This document shows positions 3,911 to 34,464 of a stretch of DNA of 34,464 nucleotides, in pieces. A program made the position numbers and the translations under genes. Within the stretch, counting starts at the first letter, position 1. Each line of letters starts with the position of its first letter. This DNA comes from a virus: the IMG/VR virus record IMGVR_UViG_3300017963_000164, positions 1-34,464 of that record, one strand, 5' to 3'. Below the pieces are notes generated by a model. The model saw nothing but the letters and a program-made list of their open reading frames with translations. It did no database searches and was not told the DNA's origin.

Positions 3911-4044
3911 TCTGGGTAATTCTTGGGACACTGCTGCTGTTAACCATGTCCATCGTGGTGGAGGCACAGTTCTTGTTAATCCTCTACGGCGCCGCACTGG
4001 CTGTCGGAATCGTGATCTTTTGCATTGATAGGATGAAGAGATGA
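3907..4044 (+). CDS. Small two-segment membrane protein (45 aa)
   Basis: A 45-residue frame joined by ATGA overlaps both to the gene before and to the gene after, which strongly suggests that it is translated. It is almost entirely hydrophobic (WVILGTLLLLTMSIVV, then FLLILYGAALAVGIVIFC) and ends in a basic DRMKR. Likely two membrane helices. Function unknown. Confidence 0.65.
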   Translation: MIWVILGTLLLLTMSIVVEAQFLLILYGAALAVGIVIFCIDRMKR

Positions 4045-4679: not shown

Positions 4680-4941
4680 AACCTATAGCGCTGGTGTGTT
4701 CGCAGGCACACTCCAATCAAGAAAAGGTAAGGAGGCCGTGTTAACAAATGCTAGACGTATCTGGTACTGGGATGGCGCGGCAAGCCTAAGCCAACTTGCA
4801 ATGGAGGGAACAAGCAAACCAGAAAAATGCAAGTTCCCGTGCGAGGTGAAGGAAGTAACTTTGACTGAGGTCGTTGAAATATTGAAGGTTACTGAGAAGG
4901 CTAGAAAAAGCATTAAGGACGTTCCAATATGGAGTGTATAG
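4645..4941 (+). CDS. DUF6948-like phage protein (98 aa)
   Basis: A 98-residue protein with AGGAGG before the ATG. The pattern KPYVICRTYSAGVFAGTL, then GKEAVLTNARRIWYWDGAASLSQLA, then CKFPCEV and a conserved Trp near the C-terminus, matches what I recall of the DUF6948 family, widespread in phages and of unknown function. It ends at an amber TAG (4939-4941), after which the same frame stays open through the next repeat tract as Ala/Thr repeats and a short basic tail until a stop near 5200. The next likely gene begins 12 bases inside its 3' end. Confidence 0.82.
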   Translation: MPTKKKPYVICRTYSAGVFAGTLQSRKGKEAVLTNARRIWYWDGAASLSQLAMEGTSKPEKCKFPCEVKEVTLTEVVEILKVTEKARKSIKDVPIWSV

Positions 4942-5147
4942 AGAAACAAGGCGACGGCTACGGCTGCGGCGGCGGCTACGGCGACGGCTGCGGCGACGGC
5001 GACGGCGACGGCTACGGCGGCGGCTACGGCGACGGCGACGGCTGCGGCGGCGGCTACGGCGACGGCGACGGCTGCGGCTACGGCGACGGCTGCGGCTACG
5101 GCGGCGGCTACGGCGACGGCTGCGGCTACGGCGGCGGCTACGGCTAA
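4929..5147 (+). CDS. Gly-Asp/Tyr/Cys repeat protein (72 aa)
   Basis: A 72-residue frame beginning MECIEKQ and then purely (Gly-X)n, with X being Asp, Tyr, Cys or Gly, up to TAA at 5145. A weak AAGGA ribosome site lies 10 bases ahead, inside the preceding gene. All codons end in C. Because the DNA is a GGC-NNC repeat, all three + frames are open; the Gly frame has its own start and ends exactly at the tract's end. The alternative Ala/Thr frame is in phase with the preceding gene behind an amber stop. Translation and function are uncertain. Confidence 0.5.
   Translation: MECIEKQGDGYGCGGGYGDGCGDGDGDGYGGGYGDGDGCGGGYGDGDGCGYGDGCGYGGGYGDGCGYGGGYG
4950..5144 (+). repeat. GGC-rich coding microsatellite
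   Basis: About 195 bases of GGC alternating with GAC, TAC, TGC or GGC. It is the second such tract within 600 bases of the first (4351-4548), with the G-rich rather than the C-rich strand on top. Open in all + frames. Confidence 0.85.
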
Positions 5148-8727: not shown

Positions 8728-8921
8728 TCTATGTCGTTATTGCGTGGCTCGTCATACTCACTGGAATATGGGTCTTCCAGCTGGTCCGCAAGGGAAAGCC
8801 GCGCTCAACCCAACGCCGTGACCAAGAGATCGACCTGGTTGTGGAAGATATCCGAGATCACGGCGTTGGGTACTTAGAAATCACAAGAATAGATCCTGAC
8901 AAGGTGTTCTATCGTGAATGA
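8724..8921 (+). CDS. Single-pass membrane protein (65 aa)
   Basis: One N-terminal membrane helix (MIYVVIAWLVILTGIWVFQLV) followed by a charged cytoplasmic-type domain (RRDQEIDLVVEDIRDHGVGYLEI). It is coupled by ATGA to the previous frame and overlaps the next gene's GTG by 8 bases. Function unknown; it could anchor a process at the membrane or be an unrelated small protein. Confidence 0.65.
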   Translation: MIYVVIAWLVILTGIWVFQLVRKGKPRSTQRRDQEIDLVVEDIRDHGVGYLEITRIDPDKVFYRE

Positions 8922-9858
8922 TAAAGTTGTTCTGATAGTTGGCGGAACAGGAACGCTTGGTCAAATGATTCTGCCAAAACTTATAGACACATCAACAAAC
9001 GTTAGAGTTCTCTCAAGGGGAGAGCATAAACAAGTAGAGCTTGCCCACAAGCACAAAGACGTTGAGTTTATGCTTGGCGATGTTGCAGACCGTGAACGCG
9101 TAGAAATAGCCTGCCGTGGTTGCGATGAAGTCTACCACTTCGCCGCCATCAAACACGTCCACAAAGCAGAGCGTGACGTTCACCAGGCCATCAAGACAAA
9201 CGTTCTCGGGACTCTCAACGTAATCAATGGCTGTATCCGAAACAACGTGAGCAAGTGCATATTCACAAGCACAGACAAGGCCGTTGAACCCCTTAACGTA
9301 TACGGGGCATCGAAACTACTGGCAGAACGTGCGTGGATAGCTGGCAACCAAGGAGCACACAACTCTAGGTTTTCTGCTGTGCGCTACGGCAACGTCCTTG
9401 CCTCTAGTGGTTCAGTCCTTGAGCTGTGGCTGAAGCAACGCGACAAGCAAGAAGCTCTTACCATAACAGATCCAGAGATGACGCGCTTCTTTCTAACCGT
9501 GGAAGAAGCCGCCACGTTTGTCTTCCAGTGTATGCAAGAGATGGAAGGTGGCGAGGTGTTCATCCCCAAGGTCAAGGCTACCTCCATGAAGATGATGGCC
9601 AATATGTTGTCTGACAGAATCAAGAAGACCGGCGTAAGACCTGGCGAGAAAATGCACGAGGTCTTGATAAGCAAGAACGAGATGATGCAGGCAAGAGACG
9701 CGGGGCATTGCTTTATCAGATACCCAGACACTGACTGGTTCACCTTTGAAACAAAGGGACAGTGGTTGCCGAAGGATTTCGAGTACACATCCCTAACAGC
9801 CCAACAGTACACAGACAATGAACTGAGGGACTTGCTATGTACTTTATTGCAGAAATAG
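8914..9858 (+). CDS. Nucleotide-sugar 4,6-dehydratase, PseB/FlaA1 type
   Basis: A 314-residue extended short-chain dehydrogenase. It shows the Rossmann NAD(P) motif GGTGTLG (10-16), YHFAAIKHVHKAE, TNVLGTLNVI, FTSTDKAVEPLNVYGASK (catalytic Asp-Lys near 120 and YxxxK at about 130-134), RYGNVLASSGSVLELW and TDPEMTRFFLTVEEA. This set is typical of PseB/FlaA1/CapD-type UDP-N-acetylglucosamine 4,6-dehydratases, the first step in pseudaminic-acid and related sugar pathways. C-terminal RPGEKMHEVL is also characteristic. The GTG start overlaps the previous gene. First gene of the sugar island; substrate is inferred from family. Confidence 0.92.
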   Translation: MNDKVVLIVGGTGTLGQMILPKLIDTSTNVRVLSRGEHKQVELAHKHKDVEFMLGDVADRERVEIACRGCDEVYHFAAIKHVHKAERDVHQAIKTNVLGTLNVINGCIRNNVSKCIFTSTDKAVEPLNVYGASKLLAERAWIAGNQGAHNSRFSAVRYGNVLASSGSVLELWLKQRDKQEALTITDPEMTRFFLTVEEAATFVFQCMQEMEGGEVFIPKVKATSMKMMANMLSDRIKKTGVRPGEKMHEVLISKNEMMQARDAGHCFIRYPDTDWFTFETKGQWLPKDFEYTSLTAQQYTDNELRDLLCTLLQK

Positions 9859-10478
9859 GCTCATGCCACATGGGCAAGCTGGACTATGCCAAGGAGGCCA
9901 TTGACCTTGCAGCTGAGGCCGGCGCTGATGTCTGTAAGTTTCAGTTATTCAGAGGCAAACAGTACACCAAGAGCGGAAACATCGAGCTAAGCGAGGATCT
10001 GTGGCGCGACATCGTGGAGTATGCAAAGGACCGAATACCAGTCACTGCAAGTGTGTTCGACAAACATACCTATTTGATGATTAGGGGTTGCTCTGGCTTG
10101 CCGTTTATCAAGTTCGCCTATTCTCAACTTCACAACTACGACTTGCAGAGCAGGGCATACCGGGCTGGATATGACATTATCGTCAGCTGTGACCACATGA
10201 CTTATAAGATACCGCATCACAAGGCCAAGAAGCTCTATTGCGTGCCCGAATACCCGGTAAAATATAAGATTGATTTCGAGGGTTGTTTTCCCAAGTTCGA
10301 TGGGTTCTCAGATCACACCTATGGATTAGAGCAGACATTCGCCGCAGTACGTCGTGGTGCACAGATCATCGAGAAGCATTTCAAGCTAGATCATGATGAC
10401 ATTGTGTGCCCTGATGCTGAGTTCGCTATCACACCAAACAAACTAAGGGTTCTTGTTAAGCACTTGAGGGAGATATGA
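9837..10478 (+). CDS. Short NeuB/PseI-type nonulosonate synthase
   Basis: A 213-residue protein of the NeuB family, which condenses phosphoenolpyruvate with an amino-hexose to make sialic, pseudaminic or legionaminic acid. Family motifs are AEIGSCHMG (5-13), GADVCKFQ (near 35), VTASVFDKHTYL, PFIKFAYSQLHNYDL, SCDHMTYK, CVPEYP, FSDHTYGLEQTFAAVRRGA (near 158) and IIEKHFKLD (178-186). Usual family members have about 340 residues with a C-terminal SAF (antifreeze-like) domain that covers the active site; it is absent here and the barrel is trimmed. It overlaps the dehydratase by 22 bases and the next gene by ATGA. Activity of so short a form is unproven. Confidence 0.88.
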   Translation: MYFIAEIGSCHMGKLDYAKEAIDLAAEAGADVCKFQLFRGKQYTKSGNIELSEDLWRDIVEYAKDRIPVTASVFDKHTYLMIRGCSGLPFIKFAYSQLHNYDLQSRAYRAGYDIIVSCDHMTYKIPHHKAKKLYCVPEYPVKYKIDFEGCFPKFDGFSDHTYGLEQTFAAVRRGAQIIEKHFKLDHDDIVCPDAEFAITPNKLRVLVKHLREI

Positions 10479-11191
10479 AGGTTCTAGTCATTGGTGGAAA
10501 TGGCTCTATAGGCAAGCGCTATTGTGCCATCTTGCGTTATCTCAAGGTGAACTATGAGATTTACGAGATCAACGATGTGTTGGCTAATTCGGCGCCACCA
10601 GAGGCTGACAGGTGGCTGATCGCATCTCCCACTTCAACCCACTTCGAGTATTGTATGGAAGCTATTAAGCGCAGGAAGCCATTCTTGTGCGAGAAGCCGC
10701 TATCTAAGTCTCTGGATCAGTGCAGGGAGATCAGGGATGCTGCCCAAGCGGCTGATGTTGATGGCCGGGTGGTATGTAATTACAAGATAGCATTTGAGAT
10801 AAATTTTGGTGGGACTGTGTTTGAAGGGGCGCTGCCCTACAAATACGAGTATTTCAACACTGGCAAAGACGGTGTGTTTTGGGACTTGTGCCAGTTGATA
10901 TACATGAATCCCAACCTGTTGATAGACACAGATAGCCCGACATGGTGTTTGTGGATGCACCAACCGAAGCAGCCATCCAGGACTTTCGTAGACGCAGAGA
11001 AACCACAACCAAGCATATTCATCCTGGAATGTCTTGAGCAATCTTATCGCCAAATGATTCAAGCGTGGTTTCGAGATAACCCGAAATGGCCAAATCTTGG
11101 CATAGAATCTCTATGGTCTTTAGATGACGGAGTAAATATGACCAAGGCGGTTATTGAAAGAATGGAAAGAGAAAAGGTGAAGATTTTATGA
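10475..11191 (+). CDS. Gfo/Idh/MocA-type NAD(P)-dependent sugar oxidoreductase (short)
   Basis: A 238-residue protein with an N-terminal Rossmann fold (VLVIGGNGSIGKRY, 4-17), the ASPTSTHFEYCMEAIKRRKPFLCEKPLSKS block including the family's EKP motif near residue 73, and a reduced C-terminal domain; typical members have 320-370 residues. Such enzymes oxidise or reduce hydroxyl groups of sugars, and they occur in nonulosonate-like clusters. It is coupled by ATGA to the NeuB gene. The exact step is unknown; creation of a keto group for the class III aminotransferase downstream is one possibility. Confidence 0.85.
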   Translation: MKVLVIGGNGSIGKRYCAILRYLKVNYEIYEINDVLANSAPPEADRWLIASPTSTHFEYCMEAIKRRKPFLCEKPLSKSLDQCREIRDAAQAADVDGRVVCNYKIAFEINFGGTVFEGALPYKYEYFNTGKDGVFWDLCQLIYMNPNLLIDTDSPTWCLWMHQPKQPSRTFVDAEKPQPSIFILECLEQSYRQMIQAWFRDNPKWPNLGIESLWSLDDGVNMTKAVIERMEREKVKIL

Positions 11192-11197
11192 GCGGAA

Positions 11198-11326
11198 ATG
11201 TCTGAGGCTATATTTTTCAGCTTGATTGTAATGGCGAAACTTCAAGACAAAGAAACGGAGATTGAATCTTATGAAGACGCTAATAGGAATACAAGTCAGG
11301 GCCAGAAGCACCAGGCTTCCGAATAA
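11198..11326 (+). CDS. Possible small protein (42 aa)
   Basis: A 42-residue frame lying between the oxidoreductase and cytidylyltransferase genes and overlapping the latter by 56 bases. It starts MSEAIFFSLIVMAKLQ and is then polar. No good ribosome site precedes it, and it may be a chance frame; the gap it fills is only 79 bases. Confidence 0.25.
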   Translation: MSEAIFFSLIVMAKLQDKETEIESYEDANRNTSQGQKHQASE

Positions 11327-11939
11327 GCACCTTGAGGAGATCGGCGGCAAGAGCTGCTTGCAGCACGTCTGGGACAGTGCACAGGACGCCTCCAAGGTGA
11401 AGCGCAGTGGTGAGGAGGTCGTAGTTTCCTTGCTTGTTCCGGAGGATGAGAAGCTTGCGTTTGTTAACCTTGGCTTCGATCCCATCTTCTATGGTGACGG
11501 TGCCGACCTTCTTGGCCGTTATGCCTCGGCTGCCATACATTATAGCGCTGATCGCATCGTCAGGGTTACAGGTGACTGTCCCATGTTGCCTCCAATGTTG
11601 ATCCTAAAGTGTATGGAGCAGTTACAGACCGTTGATTACAGCTCCAATACTACGGAGCGCACCTACCCAGACGGTTATGATATACAAGGGTGTTCCAAGG
11701 AAGCCTTGTTATGGTTCTGCCATAACCAGAACGGAGAGAGGGAGCACCCCTTTGTTTTATTCGACAAGAACCAGATGGTGCGTGAGCAGTTCACAGCGGA
11801 CGGGTTCAAGTGGGGTCAGATTATCAATGCGGAGTGTATTAATCAACGCAAGGTGTCGTTGGATACAAGGGAAGACCTCGAATGTATAAGGCGTTTTTAT
11901 GATGCAATGCGAGCACCCAAGGTGGTGTCGGCGAGCTGA
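11271..11939 (+). CDS. CMP-nonulosonate-type cytidylyltransferase (SpsF-like)
   Basis: Start at ATG 11271 with GGAG 10 bases ahead. The 222-residue protein begins GIQVRARSTRLPNKHLEEIGGKS, the nucleotide-binding signature of the acylneuraminate cytidylyltransferase/SpsF family (RxxSxRLPxK), followed by LGRYASAA and RVTGDCPMLPP (near residue 97; metal-binding Asp). The C-terminal part has REHPFVLF and SLDTREDLE, typical of SpsF-like members. It would activate a nonulosonic-type acid with CTP. Next to a NeuB-type synthase, this strongly suggests production of a CMP-sugar donor. Confidence 0.9.
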   Translation: MKTLIGIQVRARSTRLPNKHLEEIGGKSCLQHVWDSAQDASKVKRSGEEVVVSLLVPEDEKLAFVNLGFDPIFYGDGADLLGRYASAAIHYSADRIVRVTGDCPMLPPMLILKCMEQLQTVDYSSNTTERTYPDGYDIQGCSKEALLWFCHNQNGEREHPFVLFDKNQMVREQFTADGFKWGQIINAECINQRKVSLDTREDLECIRRFYDAMRAPKVVSAS

Positions 11940-13104
11940 GCGGGCTATCGCTCAGACAACCTGCACCAATTCCAAGCGCCCATCGGCGTTTATTGAGGGC
12001 ATTTATCCTACTCATGTCGCAAAGGGGCATGGGTGTTATCTCTATGATGTTAAAGGAAACAGGTACATAGATTTCGTAGGGGGACTTGGCACCAATATTC
12101 TTGGTTACGGTCATCCGAAGGTTACTGAGGCGGTGGTAAAGTATGCCTATCGTGGTCCGTCGTTGTCACTGCCTCACACCTTGGAGGTTGAGGTGGCCGA
12201 GAAAGTGAAGGACATGTTTCCGTTTATTGAGAAGGTACGCTTTTTCAAAACGGGTTCGGAGGCATGTTCTGCTGCGGTGCGTATAGCCAGAGCGTACAAT
12301 AGTTCTGGGAACTATGTTATCAGCGATGGCTATCATGGGTGGCATGACTTGTTCACATCCATGTCGAGTCCTGCTTTGGGGGTCCGTGATTCATTCTGTG
12401 CTGTAGACACCTTCTCATACAACCCAACCACCTACTACGCAGCATGTTGGATCACGGAACCCCTCCATTTAGATGCTTCTCCTGATCGGATTAAGGAAGT
12501 GCGTCGTTGGATGGGGTTAGCTGAAAAGAACAATTTTGTTACAATTTTCGACGAAATTGTGACCGGTCTTCGCGTGCCCAACCACAGCGTGGCTAGCTGG
12601 TGGAAATTAAAGCCTGATTTGATCTGTCTTGGGAAGGGGATAGCGAATGGTTATCCGTTATCCATAGTGGGTGGCAGGTCGGAGGTGATGGATTGTGGCG
12701 AGTGGTTTTGCTCTTCTACTTATGCTGGTGACGTGGTGTCTTTGGCGGCGTGCCAGGCGACGCTCAACGAGGTATCGAAGAACAAGAGCGTGGAGGACCT
12801 CTTCTTCTATGCGGACAATTTCTTATCCTCGTTGAACAGCATTTTAGACCTGATCGATGTTGAGATCGAGGGCTATGGCACCAGGGGCTTGCTTGACGTA
12901 TCTACCCGTAACGCTGCCCTGCTTATGCAAGAGTGCTGTAAGGCCAACATATTATTGGGAAAAGCTTATTTCTTTTCATGGGCTCATCTTGAGGCTGAGA
13001 TCACAGAGCATGTCCTGAACGTTATAGGAGACGTTGTAGAGCGCATCAAACGGGGCAGGACGCGCCTTGAGGGGCCCATGCCGATACAAACCTTCAAGAG
13101 GTGA
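11899..13104 (+). CDS. Class III PLP aminotransferase, GSA-aminomutase-like
   Basis: A 401-residue fold-type I PLP enzyme. Visible motifs are YLYDVKGNRYIDFVGGLG, FFKTGSEACSAAVRIARAY (PLP phosphate-binding region), SDGYHGWHD, VTIFDEIVTGLR (cofactor Asp near 218) and LGKGIANGYPLSIVGG (Schiff-base Lys near 246). It resembles glutamate-1-semialdehyde aminomutase, but in this setting it probably puts an amino group on a keto sugar. Standard pseudaminic pathways use an unrelated DegT-type aminotransferase, so this is an unusual substitution. It overlaps the previous gene by 41 bases; ATG 11899 gives a somewhat variable N-terminus. Confidence 0.9.
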   Translation: MMQCEHPRWCRRAERAIAQTTCTNSKRPSAFIEGIYPTHVAKGHGCYLYDVKGNRYIDFVGGLGTNILGYGHPKVTEAVVKYAYRGPSLSLPHTLEVEVAEKVKDMFPFIEKVRFFKTGSEACSAAVRIARAYNSSGNYVISDGYHGWHDLFTSMSSPALGVRDSFCAVDTFSYNPTTYYAACWITEPLHLDASPDRIKEVRRWMGLAEKNNFVTIFDEIVTGLRVPNHSVASWWKLKPDLICLGKGIANGYPLSIVGGRSEVMDCGEWFCSSTYAGDVVSLAACQATLNEVSKNKSVEDLFFYADNFLSSLNSILDLIDVEIEGYGTRGLLDVSTRNAALLMQECCKANILLGKAYFFSWAHLEAEITEHVLNVIGDVVERIKRGRTRLEGPMPIQTFKR

Positions 13105-13108
13105 GAGA

Positions 13109-13432
13109 ATGGACGTTACAGCGGCAGCAGAGGCTTTAGGGGTGGATTCTCGGTGGCTATCCAGGGCCATATGGCATCATCGTGTGCCCTTATTCGGTCG
13201 TCGTTGTTATATGGGCGGTGTTGTGTATGAGGCTAAGCCTGGTGCATTGCGGTGGTTGGTGGACAGGTCACCTGATGCCATCGTCTATGCTTATCGGCGC
13301 AAGCATTGTTCAGAGGCTGTCAAATACGAAGTGTTATCAAAGCGTTATGGTGTGTCTCGTTACGAAAAGGGGCAGTTGCCTAGTGGTTATGCAGACTTAG
13401 AGCACACAACGCTATGGTTAGCGGAGGCTTAG
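13109..13432 (+). CDS. Small protein with HTH-like N-terminus (107 aa)
   Basis: Start at ATG 13109 just after GAGGTGAG. The N-terminus (VTAAAEALGVDSRWLSRAIWHH) looks like a MerR/excisionase-type helix-turn-helix, followed by a compact domain with two further helices and KRYGVSRYEKGQLPSGYADL. It lies inside the sugar island between the aminotransferase and the acetyltransferase. DNA binding is a guess; no family is recognised. Confidence 0.55.
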   Translation: MDVTAAAEALGVDSRWLSRAIWHHRVPLFGRRCYMGGVVYEAKPGALRWLVDRSPDAIVYAYRRKHCSEAVKYEVLSKRYGVSRYEKGQLPSGYADLEHTTLWLAEA

Positions 13433-13435
13433 TTG

Positions 13436-14038
13436 ATGGTATCTGTAGATCGTAACGAGTTGAAGTTAAGGTTATCTCCTGAGTTACCTCATGAGCAGTT
13501 AAAGTGGCGCAATGATGCTCGTATTTGGCGTTGGTGTCGTCAGAATCACATCATCACCAGGGCTCAGCAGATGGAGTGGTTGGATCGCATAGAGATGGAT
13601 CCTGCGATACAGATGTTTGGTATTGACTCATCCAAAGCCGGGTTAGTTGGGACCTGTGGTTTAACGGGGATCAACACCTATCATCGCACGGCTGAGTTTA
13701 GCCTATTTATAGGTCCTGAGTATCATGGCCATGGTTATTCACGCCCAAGCCTGGTCCTATTATTGGATTATGGGTTCAACCGGATGAACCTGAAGTGCAT
13801 CTACGGAGAGGTGATAGCTGGCAACCCAGCGTTAAGCCTATTCTTATCTGTTGGTTTCCGTGAGGAGGGTATTCATCATTGTCGGTACTTCAAGCATGGC
13901 AAGTATCATGACGCAGTGAGCATCTCTATCACGGATGGTGAGTACAGGAAGAGGGGTATATATGAGACGGTATTTGATGATTCTATTGATGCTGGTGATG
14001 GTTGGCATGTTATTCGGATGGTGGACAAGGACCGCTGA
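13436..14038 (+). CDS. GNAT-family N-acetyltransferase, PseH/RimJ type
   Basis: Start at ATG 13436 with GGAGG 9 bases ahead. The 200-residue protein has a GNAT core: LRLSPELPHEQLKWRNDARIW, then GLTGINTYHRTAEFSLFIG, the acetyl-CoA region PEYHGHGYSRPSLVLLLDYGF, and LKCIYGEVIAGNPALSLFLSVGF followed by a Tyr-bearing strand. PseH-type enzymes N-acetylate 4-amino sugars in the pseudaminic pathway. Placed after an aminotransferase, this is a good candidate for acetylating the new amino group. The C-terminal 40 residues are extra; the gene overlaps the Cys-rich peptide gene by 77 bases. Confidence 0.85.
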   Translation: MVSVDRNELKLRLSPELPHEQLKWRNDARIWRWCRQNHIITRAQQMEWLDRIEMDPAIQMFGIDSSKAGLVGTCGLTGINTYHRTAEFSLFIGPEYHGHGYSRPSLVLLLDYGFNRMNLKCIYGEVIAGNPALSLFLSVGFREEGIHHCRYFKHGKYHDAVSISITDGEYRKRGIYETVFDDSIDAGDGWHVIRMVDKDR

Positions 14039-14912: not shown

Positions 14913-16043
14913 ATGGCTGGCAAAAGCGGTCCCACACAACTCCAGATCGAATACGTTGAACCACAAACACTCGTCCCAGATAAGACCAACCCACGATCCA
15001 TTACAGAAAAAGAACTGTCTAAGTTGCGGAAAAGCTTAGATACTTTCGGATTCGTTGAACCCATCATAGCTAGACGAGAAGATAACTTAATCATAGGCGG
15101 GCATCAACGCGTTAAGGCGAACAAAGAGGCAAAGATTCCGGTTATTTATGTTGAAGGGATGTCAGACGAGAAGGCAAGGCTGCTCAATATCGCACTGAAC
15201 AAGATACAGGGCGAGTTCGATGAGCCAAAGCTACGAGCCGTACTACAAGCCCTACATGAAGACGGAGCAGACCTAACACTGTCAGGCTTCGATGAAGCAG
15301 AACTGAAACCACTAGTAGCAGTTGGAACAGATCTCCTCACAGATCCAGATGAGGTGCCGGAAGTTAAAGATGAAGATGTTTATGTGAAAACGGGGGATTC
15401 ATGGAATTTGGACGGGAGTATTGTAACTTGTTGTGATTCAACAGATATTATGATTAACAGGGATGTTTTGACAGATCCGCCCTATGGTATGAAAGCAGTA
15501 GAAAATAGCGGAGTTTTAAAAGCCAAAGGGTACCCTCCGATTTGTGGAGATGTGGATAACACGGTTGCCTGTAAATTTGCTAAACAGATGAATGATCTAC
15601 CAAGTCATAAAGTTGTTTTGTGGGGCGCTAATTATTATTCTAATGTTTTGCCAGCATCCTCATGCTGGATTGTCTGGGACAAGAAAAACGGGCTTTCAGA
15701 TCAAATGGACTGTGAACTAGCATGGACAAACATAAATGGAGTAACTCGAAAATTTGAGTGTGCAACAGAGAAAGTAGATAGAAAACACCCTACACAGAAG
15801 CCAGTAGCGTTGCTGGCTTGGGTTTTGGAAAGATTCGACATGGGGGAAGATATTTATGATCCATTCGGTGGGGCAGGCTCTACTTTGATCGCTTGTGAAC
15901 AAACAGGCCGCAAATGTGTCATGATGGAAATCGACCCATACTACTGTCAGGTGATTATAGAAAGATGGCAAAACGCAACGGGAAAAAAAGCAAAGCTGTT
16001 GCAACGCGGCGAGGACGCAAAGGACTCTACTCCCCAGAGATAA
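14913..16043 (+). CDS. ParB-like nuclease / DNA methyltransferase fusion
   Basis: A 376-residue protein. Residues 10-110 form a ParB/Srx domain (LVPDKTNPRSITEKELSKLRKSLDTFGFVEPI, then IIGGHQRVKA). Residues about 150-360 form a beta-class N6-adenine or N4-cytosine methyltransferase: TDPPYG (motif IV, near 188), WGANYYSNVLP, HPTQKPVALL and DPFGGAGST (motif I, near 316), then EIDPYYCQVIIERW. Such fusions are common in phages next to terminase genes. The methylase half is shorter and visibly richer in A/T (about 15350-15900) than the ParB half. No Shine-Dalgarno precedes the only in-frame ATG. Likely role: marking or protecting phage DNA. Confidence 0.92.
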   Translation: MAGKSGPTQLQIEYVEPQTLVPDKTNPRSITEKELSKLRKSLDTFGFVEPIIARREDNLIIGGHQRVKANKEAKIPVIYVEGMSDEKARLLNIALNKIQGEFDEPKLRAVLQALHEDGADLTLSGFDEAELKPLVAVGTDLLTDPDEVPEVKDEDVYVKTGDSWNLDGSIVTCCDSTDIMINRDVLTDPPYGMKAVENSGVLKAKGYPPICGDVDNTVACKFAKQMNDLPSHKVVLWGANYYSNVLPASSCWIVWDKKNGLSDQMDCELAWTNINGVTRKFECATEKVDRKHPTQKPVALLAWVLERFDMGEDIYDPFGGAGSTLIACEQTGRKCVMMEIDPYYCQVIIERWQNATGKKAKLLQRGEDAKDSTPQR

Positions 16044-17693: not shown

Positions 17694-17939
17694 GTGGGCA
17701 AGATAGATGACATTCTAAAGTCCCGACAAGCTCCCGGCATCCACATCAAAACCACGTTCTCTCCTTACTTTAATCATGGGCTCGGCAAGTGGATACACAA
17801 GCCAAGCGACGTACAAGAGAACATCAAGAAGCTGAATGACGAGACTGGCATGGATGTAGTCGAGATGGGTAACGACGACCATCCAGATGACCTCAAGCCA
17901 GAACGCAAGCCATACCCATCGCTGAATGAGTTTGATTAA
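17694..17939 (+). CDS. Small protein between terminase and portal (81 aa)
   Basis: GTG start immediately after the TerL stop; the TAATG junction at its end starts the portal gene. It has an acidic C-terminus (NDDHPDDLKPERKPYPSLNEFD) and no recognised domain. Small genes at this place are common in phage packaging operons. Function unknown. Confidence 0.65.
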   Translation: MGKIDDILKSRQAPGIHIKTTFSPYFNHGLGKWIHKPSDVQENIKKLNDETGMDVVEMGNDDHPDDLKPERKPYPSLNEFD

Positions 17940-19714
17940 TGGAAAAAGGCATCGGAATTGTAGACTTACACGCCCAAGTCCGTGATGAGCCCAGGTCAAC
18001 CGAGCAGAGCGAGGAACAGCAAGATACAGCCAAGATGGTCAACGAGCTTTGGCTTCGCTCTAAAAGGAGGCTTCAGACCTCGTTCAGACGGTTTCAAGAG
18101 AACAGAGACTTTTTTCTAGGTAGGCAGTGGAGTCGTAGACGTCCATCATATCGCTGTAGCGAGGCCATCAACATATGTTGGGCATACATCCAGACTCTTG
18201 TGCCAATCATGACGGATAACCGCCCCAAGACTGAATACAAGCCACCAGAGCCAGATGACCGTGAGTTTTCAGAGATCCTAACTCAGGTCAACGACTCTCT
18301 TTGGGAGAAGTACAGTTGGGACTTCACTCTGACACAGGCCATCATCGACTCCATGATCTATGACTATAGTCATATGGGTGTGTTCTGGAATCCAGAGCTA
18401 GAGGATGGCATGGGCGACGTCGAGCTGAAGCTCATGTCGCCTTGGAACTGCTTCCCGGACCTGTCAGTGCCTGACATCAACCCGTTTGGTCGCTACTTCA
18501 TCCATGCTGAGCCTGTCCCATTAGGGGAGATGAAAAGACAGTATCCAGAGCAGGCCCATCTGCTGCACTCAGACGTTGAGTCACTGATGGACCGTGTTGG
18601 TAGGGATGAAGACCGCAAGACCATCTTTCACAGCCCCCAGGATGCTGGAAGACCCGAGCCAGAACCGGAGATGACTGAGCTAGATAAGCCCATCATGAAG
18701 GTTCAATGCTGGCTAAGAGACAACACGACCATTGAGGAGTGTCTTGAGGACGACGACGGCAACAAGAGGACTGTGACCAAGCGTAAGTGGCCAAATGGTC
18801 GCTATATTGTCATAGCCAACAACATCATCCTTCGTGATGAGGAGATGCCATACAAGGATGGCATGATCCCAGTGGTTAAGCTGGTAGATCATGGGTTGCC
18901 ACGTGAGTACGCTGGAATGGGTGAGATTGACCAGGTTAAGGGGATTCAGAGGCTGGTCAACACGACCACTTGCTATATCGCAGATACCATGAAGCAGAGC
19001 GGCAACCCCATCTGGCTGTTCGGGGCAACGTCTGGTGTGGAAGTGGACAACGTAACCAACGAGCCTGGCCTTAAGATCACAGCAACCGATGTTAACCAGG
19101 TTAAGCGGTTCGCTGGTGAGGGGATGCCTGGCTATATCATGTCCTATTTGGACAACCTTCTTGGTCTTGGCAACCTGGTGTCTGGTGTGCAGGACACGAC
19201 TCGTGGAGCAGTACAGCCCGGCGTAACGTCAGGGTTGATGCTTGAGGGCTTCATTGAGGCTGCTCAGACAAGGATTAGGCTTAAGAATAGGAATTTGGAT
19301 AAGGCCATTAGGGAGATTGGACGCATGGTGGCATCAAGGATCATGCAGTTCTATGGTGTGCCCAGGGTGTTCAGGATCACCAACAAGCAGGGCTTCCCTG
19401 AGTTCTTTGAGTTCTTTGTTACAGAAGAGGGCAACCAGCAGTACGCTCATATCAAGCGTGCTGCCAATGGCCCCAACATGGGTTTTGACAAGAAGCTGGT
19501 TAAGGGGATGCCTGATGTATCTGTGACAAGCGGTAGCGCTCTTCCGTTTGTTAAAGCTCAGAAGGCTGCAACTGCTATCACCCTGTTTAATAACGGGATT
19601 ATTGACGAGGAAGAGGTCTTAAAGGCCCATGATTGGCCGAACAAGGAAGAGGTCTTACGTCGTGTCGTGGAGAGGAAGCAGGCCATGGCACAGCAAGCAG
19701 GAGGTGGACAGTGA
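17939..19714 (+). CDS. Portal protein
   Basis: A 591-residue protein directly after the terminase genes. Residues 40-100 (SKRRLQTSFRRFQENRDFFLGRQW, then INICWAYIQTLVPIMTDNRPK) are typical of the portal clip and wing in the P22-like portal group; the middle has YDYSHMGVFWNPEL and LMSPWNCFPD, and residues 320-410 carry the DQVKGIQRLVN and TTRGAVQPGVTSGLMLEGF (crown/barrel helix) blocks. Portals form the dodecameric ring at the capsid vertex. Length is in the usual range. Confidence 0.92.
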   Translation: MEKGIGIVDLHAQVRDEPRSTEQSEEQQDTAKMVNELWLRSKRRLQTSFRRFQENRDFFLGRQWSRRRPSYRCSEAINICWAYIQTLVPIMTDNRPKTEYKPPEPDDREFSEILTQVNDSLWEKYSWDFTLTQAIIDSMIYDYSHMGVFWNPELEDGMGDVELKLMSPWNCFPDLSVPDINPFGRYFIHAEPVPLGEMKRQYPEQAHLLHSDVESLMDRVGRDEDRKTIFHSPQDAGRPEPEPEMTELDKPIMKVQCWLRDNTTIEECLEDDDGNKRTVTKRKWPNGRYIVIANNIILRDEEMPYKDGMIPVVKLVDHGLPREYAGMGEIDQVKGIQRLVNTTTCYIADTMKQSGNPIWLFGATSGVEVDNVTNEPGLKITATDVNQVKRFAGEGMPGYIMSYLDNLLGLGNLVSGVQDTTRGAVQPGVTSGLMLEGFIEAAQTRIRLKNRNLDKAIREIGRMVASRIMQFYGVPRVFRITNKQGFPEFFEFFVTEEGNQQYAHIKRAANGPNMGFDKKLVKGMPDVSVTSGSALPFVKAQKAATAITLFNNGIIDEEEVLKAHDWPNKEEVLRRVVERKQAMAQQAGGGQ

Positions 19715-21410: not shown

Positions 21411-22334
21411 ATGGCACTTACTTGGGATAATGTTAACGCGATCAGTCGCAAATATTATGTGCCCAAGTTGGTGGACAACATCTTCGACAGCAATGCCTTC
21501 TTCATGAGAATGAAGAAAAAAGGCAAGATGCCAACCTATAGTGGCGGCACAAAGATTATGCAGCCGATCATCTATGCCACAAATACAAGTGGTGGGTGGT
21601 ATTCCGGAGATGCAAACCTGACCATTGACGCAGTTGATACAAAGACTGCGTTGGAGTTCAACCCGAAGTTTGGCTATCAGTCGATTACTGTGCTTCGCAC
21701 TGACATTTTGAAGAACAGTGGCGATGCGGCGGTGATCGATCTTGTTAAGGCTGAGTTTCAGGTAGCTGAGCGGTCCATGCGTGATCGCTTTGGTACTGGT
21801 TTGTTCTCGGACGGTACGGATAGCGAGTCCATCACTGGGGCAAGAGTGTTTTGTTCAACGAGTTCGACCTATGGTGGGATTTCTCAATCCACCTATTCAT
21901 GGCTCCAAAGCCAGGTAGACTCTAGTAGCACAACGCTAACGATTCCGACCTTGCAGACTCAGTTTGAGGCTGCGAGTGAGGATAATGACATGCCGACTGT
22001 CGCTTTTACGACCGGCACGCTGTACAACGCATATTATGGCCAGTTACAGCCGCAGCAGCGTTTTAGCGATGGCGACACGGCACGTGGCGGGTTTAAGAAC
22101 ATCCTGTATAACGGCATCCCCGTTATGATTGACAGTCATGTACCTGCGAATCACTGGTTCTTCTTCAATGAGAACTACATTGATTTGCGTACACACAAGG
22201 ATGAGAACTTCCGCTTTGAGCCGTTCCTGCGTGTCCCGCAGAACAACGTGAACTATGCGAAGATTTGGTGGGCTGGTGAGCTGGTTTGCTCAGCTCCTCG
22301 CTACCAGGCTCTTCTCAGTGCATTGACTGGTTAA
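21411..22334 (+). CDS. Major capsid protein
   Basis: A 307-residue protein starting two bases after the scaffold stop. Features are an N-terminal RKYYVPKLVDNIFDSNAFFMRMKKKGK, a central EFNPKFGYQSITVLRTDILKNSG region with an axial-domain-like helix (VAERSMRDRFGTGLF), and a C-terminal FRFEPFLRVPQNNVNYAKIWWAGELVCSAPRYQALL. This is a pattern I associate with HK97-fold coat proteins of environmental phages. Position between scaffold and decoration gene supports it. It has an acceptable size for a T=7-type head. Confidence 0.88.
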   Translation: MALTWDNVNAISRKYYVPKLVDNIFDSNAFFMRMKKKGKMPTYSGGTKIMQPIIYATNTSGGWYSGDANLTIDAVDTKTALEFNPKFGYQSITVLRTDILKNSGDAAVIDLVKAEFQVAERSMRDRFGTGLFSDGTDSESITGARVFCSTSSTYGGISQSTYSWLQSQVDSSSTTLTIPTLQTQFEAASEDNDMPTVAFTTGTLYNAYYGQLQPQQRFSDGDTARGGFKNILYNGIPVMIDSHVPANHWFFFNENYIDLRTHKDENFRFEPFLRVPQNNVNYAKIWWAGELVCSAPRYQALLSALTG

Positions 22335-22345
22335 GGGGGTGAATC

Positions 22346-22870
22346 ATGACAACGCCTTATGGATATAGGGTTAGCTTTCGTGATTCCGTGTCGAGCGTAA
22401 CTGCGACGATCCCTTCCGGTTATGCACTTGGCATGGAACGCATTGATGGTGGAACAACTTATCGTTATTGTTACAATGCTGGTAACTCCCAGATTGGGCC
22501 AGGTTACTGCTTCAAGACAGTAGGCGGCGGAAGTGGCCCCTACAGCATCACGATTTCGACAACAACCGAAGTCATTTCGGATACGCTTGGCGTCATTCCT
22601 GGTGCTCACAATACGGCCACAACCGGTACTTACTTCTGGGCAGCAACCAAGGGCGAGGTTGGGAAGCTGCTTGTGTCGAACGTTTCCATTGCTACAGACG
22701 CAGCTATCGCTGTGGCTGCCAATGGCGCCTTGACCAAGCTGACATCCAACACCGCTGCAATCGGCATCAACCTTGGAAACAGCAACGGAACAGGAGCAAC
22801 CGACACACTTAGTGGCGACTTCTTGATCGACTGTGAGTCTCTCAAGTACGCCATGACAATCGAGGCATAA
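22346..22870 (+). CDS. Probable capsid decoration protein, Ser/Thr/Gly-rich
   Basis: GGGGGTGA precedes the ATG. The 174-residue protein is rich in Ser, Thr, Gly and Ala with beta-strand-like stretches (PYSITISTTTEVI, TGTYFWAATKGEVGKLLVSNVSIATDAAIAVAANGAL), and has the look of a head decoration or fibre protein. It lies between the major capsid gene and the Maf-like glycosyltransferase gene, overlapping the latter by one base. Its many exposed Ser/Thr make it a natural candidate substrate for that enzyme; that is inference. Confidence 0.72.
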   Translation: MTTPYGYRVSFRDSVSSVTATIPSGYALGMERIDGGTTYRYCYNAGNSQIGPGYCFKTVGGGSGPYSITISTTTEVISDTLGVIPGAHNTATTGTYFWAATKGEVGKLLVSNVSIATDAAIAVAANGALTKLTSNTAAIGINLGNSNGTGATDTLSGDFLIDCESLKYAMTIEA

Positions 22871-23937
22871 TGTCTAAGGAAATCCTTTCACTTGGCAGGG
22901 AGTACCAGCCACTTATTAGCAGGCCACCGCAGGCCGAGCAGGACATGTATCGACAAGCATGTTCTGCGGATGACATCACGGTGAAGTCCTGGAAGCATAC
23001 CTGGCTGGAGAACTACAGATCCATTCGGGATAAGTACGGTGGGTTCGAGAATGTGACTTATGGCAAGTTGCAAGGCAAGAACAGACACCGCCCTGCTATC
23101 GTTATCGGGGCCGGGCCATCTGTTGGTAGATCGCTGGAGGCATTGAAAGAGTCGGGAGATATTTTGAGCATTTCCTGTCTACATAACTATGCCTACTTCG
23201 AGGACAACGAGTGGCACCCTGATTACTACCTAACGCTTGATGCTGGCGCGGTGGTGATTGATGACATGGTGGAAGCCGGAACGAAGGAACGTGAACATTA
23301 CTTCGAAACAACGAAGGACAAGCACCTCATTGCTTGTAGTTTCACGGATCCACGCTTGCTAGACTTGTGGCAGGGAGAGGTGAGCATTTTCAACTGCTTG
23401 ATTCCCAATCTGGAGTTTCAGAAGGAATTGAACGCGATTGAACGCTTTTCCCACTACATCTCTAGCGGTGGCAACGCCCTTGGCGCTTCGATGTATACGG
23501 CCAAGGTAATCATGGGCTCAAACCCGATCATGTATGTTGGAGCTGACTTCTGTTTTTCCCATGACAAGAAGTTTCATAGCTGGGGCAGCAAGTACGACGA
23601 TGTGGGCAACGCGATACGTTGTTTCGACGTGTTTGGTATGCCGCGTTATACTTGGCAGAGTTACTACAACTTCAAGATCTGGTTTGAGTACATTGCCTGC
23701 AAGGTTCCTGGTATTTGGATTAACTGTTCAGATGGCATCTTAGGTGCTTATCGTGACGGGAACATCAGCCAGTTCGTTTACCAGGAACTAAAAGAAGCGC
23801 TTGTGCAGTATACGATGGCCGACGTTATTTACAGGCACAAGATCAACGATAAGGGCGAGAAAATAGAGGAAAAGACGTACAAACTGAGCGACTATTTTTC
23901 TAACACCAAACATGAAGACGATCTGATATTGTTTTAG
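22870..23937 (+). CDS. Maf/DUF115-family glycosyltransferase-like protein in the head operon
   Basis: A 355-residue protein. It contains the MAF_flag10/DUF115 (MptE-like) core: HRPAIVIGAGPSVGRSLEAL (near 75-93), HPDYYLTLDAG (near 118-128), ISSGGNALGASMYTAKVIMGSNPIMYVGADFCF (197-229) with HDKKFHSWGS after it, the latter being the family's SGG/GxDxxxxxxxxH hallmark. Maf proteins transfer nonulosonic acids from CMP-sugars to Ser/Thr of flagellin. Here the gene is placed among head genes and the same genome encodes a CMP-sugar pathway (8914-14038). It would act in the cytoplasm during virion assembly. Enzymatic activity is inferred from family. Confidence 0.85.
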   Translation: MSKEILSLGREYQPLISRPPQAEQDMYRQACSADDITVKSWKHTWLENYRSIRDKYGGFENVTYGKLQGKNRHRPAIVIGAGPSVGRSLEALKESGDILSISCLHNYAYFEDNEWHPDYYLTLDAGAVVIDDMVEAGTKEREHYFETTKDKHLIACSFTDPRLLDLWQGEVSIFNCLIPNLEFQKELNAIERFSHYISSGGNALGASMYTAKVIMGSNPIMYVGADFCFSHDKKFHSWGSKYDDVGNAIRCFDVFGMPRYTWQSYYNFKIWFEYIACKVPGIWINCSDGILGAYRDGNISQFVYQELKEALVQYTMADVIYRHKINDKGEKIEEKTYKLSDYFSNTKHEDDLILF

Positions 23938-23947
23938 GAGTTTAACA

Positions 23948-24244
23948 ATGGCGTATACAGTAACCACAAGGAAACATTGGGTTGGTGGCGATACGCGGGC
24001 CGTGGCGTTGGAAGTCACTGCTGATGCGGCAACACAGAATGTGAACACCAACTTGAAGTACATTCACTTTTTCACGGCGACGCCGAAAAGCATGGTAGCT
24101 TATACAACGCTGTCCGCTGGCATTGCCGCTGGTTGGGTCATCAACAAGAACAAGCTGGCGGCTGGAACGGCTGCGAATGGTTATTTGGCAGTATCTAATG
24201 CCACAAGCGGGGATGAATACGAGATCGTCGCCTATGGCCGTTAG
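23948..24244 (+). CDS. Small virion protein (98 aa)
   Basis: AGGAG precedes ATG. A 98-residue Thr/Ala-rich beta-type protein (TVTTRKHWVGGDTRAVALEVTADA, then AAGWVINKNKLAAGTAANGYLAV). Context suggests a head or connector decoration protein. No family recognised. Confidence 0.7.
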   Translation: MAYTVTTRKHWVGGDTRAVALEVTADAATQNVNTNLKYIHFFTATPKSMVAYTTLSAGIAAGWVINKNKLAAGTAANGYLAVSNATSGDEYEIVAYGR

Positions 24245-24255
24245 GGGGTTGAATC

Positions 24256-24627
24256 ATGGCAACTGTGTCAAGATTTCCCATTACACTTACGACTGACTCA
24301 ACGCTTACTTCCAACTTTGCCATGCCTGGTCAGTGGCGCTTTACAGCGCTTGAGGTGCCACCAACGTCAGATTGGTGCATTACAGCGACCTGTGCGATCT
24401 TTGTCCGTGCTGCTGGTGCGGCTGACGGAACCTATTATGAGGGTTCTATCGTCAACCCGGCCGGCGTTGGCACGGGCGGCCTTCCGTGGAAGGCTGGCCT
24501 AAGCAACACAGTCAGCGGGTCCGTTATGGAGTGTCCTCCGCTGCAATATGCGGAACATTTCAAGATTGAAACAACAAACACATCAACAGCTGCCGCTATG
24601 TTCTATGCTATTGGAACGCCCGGCTAG
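24256..24627 (+). CDS. Small virion protein (123 aa)
   Basis: The start has the same GGGGGT-GAATC-type ribosome site as the decoration gene at 22346. The 123-residue protein is Thr/Ala/Gly-rich with beta-strand character (FPITLTTDSTLTSNFAMPGQWRF, then IVNPAGVGTGGLPW). Probably a head protein; another possible glycosylation substrate. Confidence 0.7.
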   Translation: MATVSRFPITLTTDSTLTSNFAMPGQWRFTALEVPPTSDWCITATCAIFVRAAGAADGTYYEGSIVNPAGVGTGGLPWKAGLSNTVSGSVMECPPLQYAEHFKIETTNTSTAAAMFYAIGTPG

Positions 24628-24635
24628 GAGGAGAG

Positions 24636-25052
24636 ATGGTACAGCCGTATACTCAAACCACCCATGAGGTGGTCAACTGGAAGGCTAAGGTCTGGAACGA
24701 TGATGACAAGGACTATGTGGAAGACTTCAAGGGAGAGACGATAAGGGTCCCAGCCAAGGGGTATATCGTTATGGACTTTCTTGAAGCTAGGGCTTTTTTG
24801 GGCAAGGGGACGCCGATCAAGAAAGATGGCCAAGGTAGGGTTCTGAATCCGAAGATGCTTAGGACAGAGAAGATACACCCAGATTTTTCCGAGAAAGAAA
24901 AGATCGAAGCTCAGAAGATTGCAGAGTTCAACAAGGATCATGATGAAATTGTAACGCAGATGAAAAATGCTGGTACAGTTGGTGAGGCCACGCCAGATCC
25001 GACGTCCCCGATGCCACGTAGGCGAGGGAGGCCACCTAAAAGTGACCGTTAG
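24636..25052 (+). CDS. Virion-region protein with C-terminal AT-hook-like motif (138 aa)
   Basis: AGGAGGAG precedes ATG. The N-terminal part (HEVVNWKAKVWNDDDKDYV, then AKGYIVMDFLEARAFLG) is a compact domain; the end carries PRRRGRPPK, a good match to the AT-hook consensus (basic-GRP-basic), which inserts in the minor groove of A/T-rich DNA. An inner-capsid or packaging role is possible. It overlaps the next gene by 11 bases. Confidence 0.7.
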   Translation: MVQPYTQTTHEVVNWKAKVWNDDDKDYVEDFKGETIRVPAKGYIVMDFLEARAFLGKGTPIKKDGQGRVLNPKMLRTEKIHPDFSEKEKIEAQKIAEFNKDHDEIVTQMKNAGTVGEATPDPTSPMPRRRGRPPKSDR

Positions 25053-25683
25053 CGAATTTGAAAACGAGGCACGGAGATTGGGTGACTTCGAGTCTGATAC
25101 GTTCATCTCAAGCTCCGAGATATACAAGGCCATTGAGGCGGTGTGTCAGGAAATCTTGGCGATCATTGGCCTGATCGAGACAGAGGACACGTCGATCACC
25201 ACTGTTGCGAGCACGCAAGAGTACGACTATCCAACGAGGATGGAGTTTGTTGAGCGTGTGCGTTATGACGGTGACGATCTACAGAAGATCGGCTTCCGTG
25301 AGTGGGATATTGACAAGGGCTCAACGGATCCAGAGGGAACGCCAAGAAAGTTCGTGATCTGGAACAAGAAGCTCTATCTGGTTCCAACACCAGACGAGGC
25401 CAAGACGCTGACCATCTTTGGCTATAGCCGGCACGAGGATGTCAGCGCAGCAACGACGATTGCTATCCCAGAGATCCTGCACCATAGGATGATAAACAAG
25501 ATCGTCTATCGTCTTTTAATGAAAGATAAGGATTACCAGGGGGCCAAGTTCTTTCTTGATGAGTGGAGAAACTACGACTTGCCTGCGATCTATGACTACA
25601 AGCGTCAGTATAGAACAGGCGGCAAATATCAAGTGGTTACTTCAGAAGAGGATGTGAACACCACGGAGTATGGGATTATATGA
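25042..25683 (+). CDS. Head-tail connector/adaptor protein
   Basis: GTG 25042 with GGGAGG ahead is chosen; the frame upstream of it lies inside the previous gene. The 213-residue helical protein (FENEARRLGDFESDTFISSSEIYKAIEAVCQEILAIIGL at the start; LHHRMINKIVYRLLMKDKDYQGAKFF near the end) fits the size, helix pattern and position of phage adaptor proteins that join portal and tail. Call is by context and pattern. Confidence 0.7.
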   Translation: MTVSEFENEARRLGDFESDTFISSSEIYKAIEAVCQEILAIIGLIETEDTSITTVASTQEYDYPTRMEFVERVRYDGDDLQKIGFREWDIDKGSTDPEGTPRKFVIWNKKLYLVPTPDEAKTLTIFGYSRHEDVSAATTIAIPEILHHRMINKIVYRLLMKDKDYQGAKFFLDEWRNYDLPAIYDYKRQYRTGGKYQVVTSEEDVNTTEYGII

Positions 25684-33277: not shown

Positions 33278-34201
33278 ATGAGCCACGGACCAACAAATCC
33301 AGGCAAAGACCCTGTTAGCATATCTGGCCCAGTGTCTGGAGTGATGAGCACTTCTGGCATTGTTGATGTTAGTGGCCCTATAGGCATTACAGGAACGGTT
33401 AACACGTCAGGCACTGTGAACAATGCTCTTTCCGGAGTGTTCAGTGCTAGTGGTATTGTAGACGTTTCTGGCCCCATAGGGATAACCGGAACGGTAAACA
33501 CGTCTGGAACGGTCAACAATGCTATCTCTGGTGTTGTAAGCACTTCGGGCATTGTGGATGTTTCGGGGCCTGTTGCGATCACTGGAACCGTCAATACATC
33601 TGGAACTGTGAACAATGCCATATCCGGAGTGGTTAGCACGTCAGGCATTGTTGATGTGTCTGGTCCTATTGGGATCACGGGAACGGTTAACACGTCCGGG
33701 ACGGTCAATAACGCCTTGTCAGGTGTGATGTCAGTATCTGGGCCTGTGACGTCGTATGTCCAGTTACAGACATCCAACGTATCTGAAACCAACCCCATGT
33801 ATGTTGGTGCTGCGGTTGAGAACTCATGGCTATCTGTGGGGACTATCACGACAAGTTATAACGACGTGCTTACTAACACGGTAAGCACTGACATCAGCAG
33901 GATAACTGGTTGCCTTTATGCTGACGTGTTCCTTTCCATTACCAAGGGGAACTCGCCAACAGACTTGCGGTTTTACATAGAAGGAACTGACGACTCTGTG
34001 AGTTATTACGCAATCAGGGATGGCTGGGAGTCCCTTTGGATATATGACGACACGATTGTTGGGAGTTCGGGACGAAGCGAGTGTTTGAGGATTCGCATAC
34101 CTGCTGACACTTTCCGCATAAGAGTTCAGGCTGGTGGAACCACATCTTCGGCAACGTTTTCGCTGGACACCTTCAAGATAAAACAAATCTCATTCAGGTA
34201 A
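33278..34201 (+). CDS. Tail fibre/adhesin with four 32-residue repeats (307 aa)
   Basis: The 307-residue protein has four consecutive 32-residue units at residues 20-147 (unit core SGIVDVSGPIGITGTVNTSG), then a fifth partial one, and a globular C-terminal domain (residues about 170-307) with FYIEGTDDSVSYYAI and FRIRVQAGGTTSS. The repeats are Ser/Thr/Gly/Val-rich and would form a beta-solenoid or triple-stranded stalk ending in a binding head. Its stop overlaps the next gene's ATG (TAATG). No strong ribosome site. Ser/Thr density makes it a further possible glycosylation target. Confidence 0.78.
   Translation: MSHGPTNPGKDPVSISGPVSGVMSTSGIVDVSGPIGITGTVNTSGTVNNALSGVFSASGIVDVSGPIGITGTVNTSGTVNNAISGVVSTSGIVDVSGPVAITGTVNTSGTVNNAISGVVSTSGIVDVSGPIGITGTVNTSGTVNNALSGVMSVSGPVTSYVQLQTSNVSETNPMYVGAAVENSWLSVGTITTSYNDVLTNTVSTDISRITGCLYADVFLSITKGNSPTDLRFYIEGTDDSVSYYAIRDGWESLWIYDDTIVGSSGRSECLRIRIPADTFRIRVQAGGTTSSATFSLDTFKIKQISFR
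33335..33718 (+). repeat. Four tandem 96-bp coding repeats
   Basis: Units at 33335-33430, 33431-33526, 33527-33622 and 33623-33718. The encoded 32-residue units are nearly identical, but the DNA differs at many third codon positions, so the protein sequence is being kept while the DNA drifts. A partial fifth unit follows. Not a CRISPR: no spacers, and the frame is coding throughout. Confidence 0.92.
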
Positions 34202-34464
34202 TGGCTGGCTTTCTGGCATTGTACGACCCGGGCACCTATCAACAGGTGTGGAGCGCTGCAATAGGAAGCCCATGGAACTGTAACGCAGTTTGTTGGGACG
34301 GCGAAATGTTTTGGATTGGAACGTCTTTTTACATCGGCGCATACAAAGTTGATGATGCTGGTGCTTTAAAAAACGTATATTTCGTTTCGACTAGGATAGT
34401 TTATAACGCAATCCAAAACGTGAATGGAATTTGCACTGATGGCGATGCGCTATATATCGCTGTT
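34201..34464 (+). CDS. Virion/tail-associated protein, N-terminal part (continues at base 1)
   Basis: The gene begins at ATG 34201 (overlapping the previous TAA) and runs off the end; joined over the terminal repeat it continues at 1-597, for 254 residues in all. N-terminus AGFLALYDPGTYQQVWSAAIG then WDGEMFWIGTSFYIGAYKVDDAG, beta-propeller-like. See the entry for 1-597. Confidence 0.85.
   Translation, partial: MAGFLALYDPGTYQQVWSAAIGSPWNCNAVCWDGEMFWIGTSFYIGAYKVDDAGALKNVYFVSTRIVYNAIQNVNGICTDGDALYIAV
34369..34464. repeat. Right copy of 96-bp terminal direct repeat
   Basis: Identical to 1-96; begins within a run of six A (the repeat takes the last five). Marks the circular joint of the contig. 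Confidence 0.95.

Follow-up and report, generated by a model that had tools for sequence, protein, structure and literature searches.

What does a glycosyltransferase-like gene of the DUF115/Maf family do among the head genes of a virus? The window, by which we mean the whole stretch of DNA analysed here (IMG/VR virus record IMGVR_UViG_3300017963_000164, 34,464 nt), carries such a gene at 22870-23937. An identical 96-nt direct repeat is present at both termini (1-96 and 34369-34464), which makes it probable that the record is a whole genome, with 34,368 unique bases, and an amidase gene suggests a bacterial host. The DUF115 enzyme lies beside the capsid gene in a virus with sugar genes of its own, and for this reason such viruses probably sugar-coat their own particles; we infer, with somewhat more confidence than doubt, that the DUF115 protein is a phage-encoded nonulosonate (NulO) transferase decorating virion proteins, a reading that takes in its donor, its acceptor, the O-linkage and the activity itself. 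Terminase, portal, capsid, adaptor and head-closure-like genes form a single block, in which the following features matter here:

17939-19714, + strand: P22/SU10-type portal (PF16510, E 3.2e-30)
21411-22334, + strand: major capsid protein, candidate acceptor (NF033394, 250 bits against a cut-off of 80; phrog_9953, E 6.5e-55)
22346-22870, + strand: 174-aa Ser/Thr-rich protein directly 3' of the capsid gene, with a homologue at the same place in relatives; probably a virion or decoration protein and a candidate acceptor
22870-23937, + strand: DUF115/Maf-type putative CMP-nonulosonate protein transferase, 355 aa, core domain only (ATG start, TAG stop)
23948-24244, + strand: 98-aa Thr-rich small protein, candidate acceptor, with a homologue immediately 3' of DUF115 in four relatives
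24256-24627, + strand: 123-aa Ser/Thr-rich small protein, candidate acceptor, with a homologue in the same order in four relatives
24636-25052, + strand: 138-aa head-module protein restricted to the clade of the window
24967-25683, + strand: SU10-type adaptor (PF24175, E 4.8e-15)

Elsewhere in the genome, a ParB-N domain is fused to an N6/N4 DNA methylase (14913-16043), and there are two low-complexity ORFs, one with Ala/Ser/Tyr repeats (4041-4679) and one with Gly-Asp-Gly-Tyr/Cys repeats (4929-5147); a related record (L081, 6832-7603) has a comparable repeat gene after a comparable partner gene, as at 4041-5147 in the window.

The family assignment made in a first-pass annotation of this locus is borne out by a match to PF01973 of 54.2 bits (gathering cut-off 34.6, E 1.9e-14), while the NCBIfam PseD domain is matched at E 1e-4, far under the cut-off of that model. 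When the single sequence was searched against the PDB with phmmer, the sole meaningful match was 5mu5, the Maf of Magnetospirillum (E 2e-5). A profile of nine short viral DUF115 relatives matched 5mu5 at E 3e-17 and 8sd5, an archaeal HPPK/MptE, at E 6e-8; with a profile of 26 DUF115 sequences, the values were 1.6e-27 and 3.4e-13. An AlphaFold2 model built from the 26 sequences (pLDDT 77.3, pTM 0.78), which replaced a first model of pLDDT 60, aligns with 5mu5 at Z 22.6 (rmsd 2.9 Å over 242 residues), and with 8sd5, ST8SiaIII and Cst-II at Z 15.0, 10.2 and 9.6, respectively. The comparison with Magnetospirillum Maf that had been proposed as a check thus finds the glycosyltransferase fold present, a fold common to the GT29/GT42 sialyltransferases. 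Only residues 237-514 of 5mu5 are matched; the viral protein has neither the N-terminal Rossmann-like nor the C-terminal helical domain of Maf.

The motifs GxGPS, SGGN, GxDF and NCSDG are all kept, and the residues that are invariant among six members of the clade, at 31-51% identity to the window protein, are G80, G82-P83-S84, H105-N106, D124, G200-G201-N202, G224-D226, F235-H236, W262, N285 and G289. Judging by the shared fold, the conserved motifs would form a CMP-sugar pocket.

The first-pass annotation had correctly described a one-base overlap with the preceding gene, the TAA stop of 22346-22870 sharing its A with the ATG of DUF115 (TAATG), and had taken co-translation as a sign of cis-acting specificity. 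This latter step does not hold: of the 55 pairs of neighbouring genes in the window, 8 overlap by 1 or 4 bases, and most relatives have 12-143 bases between DUF115 and the gene before it. The overlap is thus commonplace, is not conserved among relatives, gives no special signal and lends no support to cis specificity. The Ser/Thr-rich flanks are real (Ser+Thr 23.6% for 22346-22870, 17.3% for 23948-24244 and 22.0% for 24256-24627) but not unique; the other proteins tabulated lie mostly at 6-16%, with the capsid at 17.6% and tail-end proteins at 19-28%. A fibre-like protein (33278-34201) made up of ~32-aa repeats rich in Ser, Thr and Gly has a Ser+Thr content of 27.7%, the highest in the table, and is for that reason also a possible acceptor. 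Conserved Ser/Thr columns in the flanking proteins and the capsid did not pick out any single acceptor.

The strongest evidence on the role of DUF115 comes from a sialic-acid-like (nonulosonic) sugar cassette at 8914-14038 of the same complete genome, absent from the first-pass annotation, together with the co-occurrence of such genes in relatives. The cassette contains:

8914-9858, + strand: PseB-like UDP-GlcNAc 4,6-dehydratase (TIGR03589, 280.7 bits against a cut-off of 407.75; 2gn4, E 5e-67)
9837-10478, + strand: short NeuB-type nonulosonate synthase, 213 aa (PF03102, 83.7 bits against a cut-off of 22.1, E 1.8e-23)
10475-11191, + strand: Gfo/Idh/MocA-type oxidoreductase, 238 aa (PF01408, E 2.7e-11)
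11262-11939, + strand: SpsF-like cytidylyltransferase, putative CMP-sugar synthetase (PF02348, E 1.6e-11; 6oew, E 6.8e-12)
11899-13104, + strand: class-III (HemL-like) aminotransferase (PF00202, E 1.5e-37; relatives in the PDB)
13067-13432: 121-aa protein between the aminotransferase and the acetyltransferase
13433-14038, + strand: GNAT N-acetyltransferase, PseH/SpeG-like (PF13302, E 2.8e-13; 6dau, E 1e-17)

The short NeuB keeps the motifs AEIG, CKFQ, SDH and EKHF and stops after the barrel, without the C-terminal SAF domain, as it does in two other phages (L078, L079). As far as the genes can be read, the cassette could plausibly lead from UDP-GlcNAc to a CMP-nonulosonate. None of its enzymes reaches an equivalog cut-off in the PseB, PseH and PseI models (NeuB against PseI, 67.7 bits, cut-off 340.25; the GNAT against TIGR03585 for PseH, 54.5 bits, cut-off 93.1), no PseC (DegT-type) or PseG homologue was recognised among the proteins scanned, and the aminotransferase that is present is of class III. 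With no match at equivalog level and no PseG, the sugar cannot be named.

We propose the following sequence of events. A compact DUF115/Maf-type glycosyltransferase would be produced late, together with the head proteins, while the cassette would supply, wholly or partly, a CMP-activated nonulosonic-acid-like sugar by dehydration of UDP-GlcNAc, transamination, N-acetylation, NeuB condensation with PEP and CMP activation. DUF115 would then place this sugar on Ser/Thr of abundant virion proteins, candidates being the capsid protein, the 22346-22870 protein and the two small Ser/Thr-rich proteins at 23948-24244 and 24256-24627.

Relatives of the window DUF115 were obtained only via a motif pattern and profiles; single-sequence searches with it, which covered phages, plasmids and both viral and genome contigs, gave none, and single-sequence scans with the major capsid protein, portal and PseB found none either. 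A scan with a short-NeuB profile gave 14 viral loci, and 10 of these 14 records also carry PF01973, six of them with the NF033394 capsid family. In the window, DUF115 lies among the head genes, as first annotated, with a single gene between it and the major capsid gene, and its position among head genes is kept in all six NF033394 relatives; although these were found by short NeuB alone, each has DUF115 on the strand of the capsid gene, 0.6-0.8 kb past it. Four relatives (L113, L114, L115, L117) repeat the order of the window, with the capsid gene, a 22346-like or small protein and DUF115, followed by a 23948-like gene, a small Ser/Thr-rich protein and a 24636-like gene. The cassette is seen in full or in part in four records (L084, L088, L089, L090), and in two more only its pair of GNAT and short NeuB was seen (L081, 8691-9787; L083, 7532-8616). 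DUF115 distances track those of the capsid (r 0.88, Mantel 4/720) and of the portal (r 0.94), and this co-divergence, as far as sequence distances tell, fits a long residence of the gene in the head block.

Eleven complete phages with a related capsid (Mx8, Mx9, BUCT555 and others) served as controls, and neither NeuB (0/11) nor PF01973 (0/11) was found in any of them. The difference between the window with its six relatives and these DUF115-less phages (7/7 vs 0/11) has a Fisher P of 3e-5, a value that is uncorrected for kinship and compares seven genomes picked by NeuB with eleven picked by capsid. The 23948-24244 product has no homologue in the DUF115-less phages of the capsid family, and for 24256-24627 they gave only one marginal, out-of-frame-order match (E 0.049). 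Among viral DUF115 records taken as motif or profile matches with their context ignored, NeuB is present in 12 of 30, against none of nine DUF115-lacking records in the same pattern scan (Fisher P 0.02); in many of the viral DUF115 records no NeuB is seen, though most records are fragments. A tblastn search with NeuB matched 3 of 50,697 phage records; as two of the three (W02, W03) lack DUF115, a phage can have NeuB and no DUF115. The same 50,697 records gave no match to other viral DUF115 queries.

Beyond the capsid family of the window, DUF115 directly follows the capsid gene in four viral records (L016, L031, L061, L066) and lies close behind it in a fifth (L067); it directly follows the major tail gene in two (L010, L032) and directly precedes it in three (L019, L051, L057). 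In L080 (6164-19716) two DUF115 genes stand just before the capsid gene, which is followed in turn by cytidylyltransferase, NeuB and tail completion genes, a third DUF115, the major tail protein and the tape measure, and in L054 (5321-8996) NeuB, a NeuC-like epimerase and a NeuA-like cytidylyltransferase stand directly 5' of DUF115, with terminase and portal following. Exceptions are L014 and L026, where DUF115 lies several genes from the capsid, behind an adaptor and a methyltransferase gene. The chance of adjacency in four of six arrangement types is ~5e-4 by a rough binomial estimate at 8% each, the types not being fully independent. Radical SAM/SPASM and sulfotransferase-type genes are found after capsid-linked DUF115 in L066 (7014-7907), L067 (9515-10321) and L016 (11822-12787), and perhaps stand for further virion modification. 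The statement that this family is normally found with flagellin genes agrees with the literature on cultured bacteria but not with uncultivated viral contigs, where DUF115 repeatedly lies beside capsid or tail genes; no flagellin family was found among the window proteins scanned. We tentatively suggest, as an idea that could go either way, that a self-sufficient system for sialylation-like modification of the virion is widespread among uncultivated tailed phages. It would combine a nonulosonic sugar made by the phage with DUF115 transferases dedicated to this task, and some genomes would have separate transferases for head and tail.

Other explanations have to be weighed against a virion-directed NulO transferase. 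The Pfam name and some database entries would make the protein an MptE/HPPK-like pterin kinase, and HPPK/MptE does have the same fold and the GxGPS motif, with 8sd5 matched at the Z score and 26-sequence profile E-value given above; a profile limited to the clade of the window barely separates the two (Maf E 0.01 vs HPPK 0.054). We nevertheless regard a pterin kinase as very improbable, since the HPPK match is weaker than that to Maf by Z and in the broader profiles and the single sequence matches Maf only. Moreover, the Maf alignment reaches model residue 316 while that of HPPK ends at 287, which leaves Maf alone in sharing the segment after NCSDG, and of the matches of the viral DUF115 profiles only that to Maf covers the NCSDG segment, which HPPK lacks. 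DUF115 also associates with NeuB and CMP-sugar genes, and the scanned window proteins gave no sign of any further pterin or folate gene. Its place among structural genes could suggest that a DUF115 enzyme has lost catalysis and become a structural or chaperone-like protein of the virion; this we consider highly unlikely, as motifs invariant across six sequences at 31-51% identity are unlike a decayed enzyme. The first-pass annotation had itself raised a structural component devoid of enzymatic residues, and the retained motifs speak against it.

The two remaining explanations accept an active enzyme. Instead of the virion, DUF115 might modify glycans or proteins at the surface of the infected host, perhaps as a block to superinfection; phage enzymes that act on host nonulosonic acids have been reported (PMC12053666, PMC6586298), and the sugar cassette would fit a host-directed or a virion-directed role alike. 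A host-directed role appears unlikely to us, because DUF115 is kept within the head/tail gene block in several lineages and because the separate capsid and tail copies in L080 would then be needless. It is similarly doubtful that a virion-acting glycosyltransferase uses another donor, CMP-Kdo or a host CMP-sugar, with the cassette serving another purpose. If its own donor is lacking, CbMaf does accept CMP-Kdo as well as CMP-Neu5Ac (PMC11339370), the cytidylyltransferase at 11262-11939 resembles KdsB too, and NeuB was not seen in many viral DUF115 records; within the capsid family, however, presence and absence of DUF115 and NeuB coincide. Decoration of virion proteins with a NulO made by the cassette therefore remains our preferred reading.

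The enzyme family, candidate acceptors and a putative source of the sugar are found together in one 34-kb genome. With this arrangement repeated in uncultivated phages of unrelated lineages, a sialic-acid-like coating of phage particles becomes testable. If our reading holds, names such as 'pterin diphosphokinase MptE-like' that databases attach to viral proteins of this kind need correcting, and viral DUF115s would provide compact enzymes for study. Our search of the open-licence literature turned up no account of DUF115 in the glycosylation of phage virions. Phage capsid glycosylation as such is already known elsewhere, in few cases, among them Che8 and Rita. To our knowledge, the glycosyltransferases of these two mycobacteriophages are not of the PF01973 family, and no NulO cassette has been reported there. 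What they share with the window virus is a phage-encoded glycosyltransferase, linked in their case to virion glycosylation as far as the account of Freeman et al. 2023 in PMC11256854 goes; the glycan on the capsid is demonstrated for Che8/Rita, whereas for the window virus it is predicted. The rare-sugar pathways of Megavirinae are likewise virus-encoded and make bacterial-like rare sugars for the particle, but these are giant eukaryotic viruses with capsid fibrils and other sugars (PMC10117803). MptE/HPPK (8sd5) shares the fold and GxGPS, but is shorter, lacks the NCSDG segment and has a pterin context. In the literature, Maf proteins are flagellin enzymes, some of which choose their acceptor with the help of a partner protein or of a TPR domain at the C-terminus (PMC11339370, PMC13317340). 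The window DUF115 resembles Maf (5mu5) in its PF01973 core fold and its GxGPS, GxD and NCSDG motifs, and like Maf genes it adjoins the gene for an abundant self-assembling surface protein and is linked to NulO synthesis genes; unlike the 666-aa 5mu5, it is a core-only protein of 355 aa, encoded by a phage, beside capsid genes.
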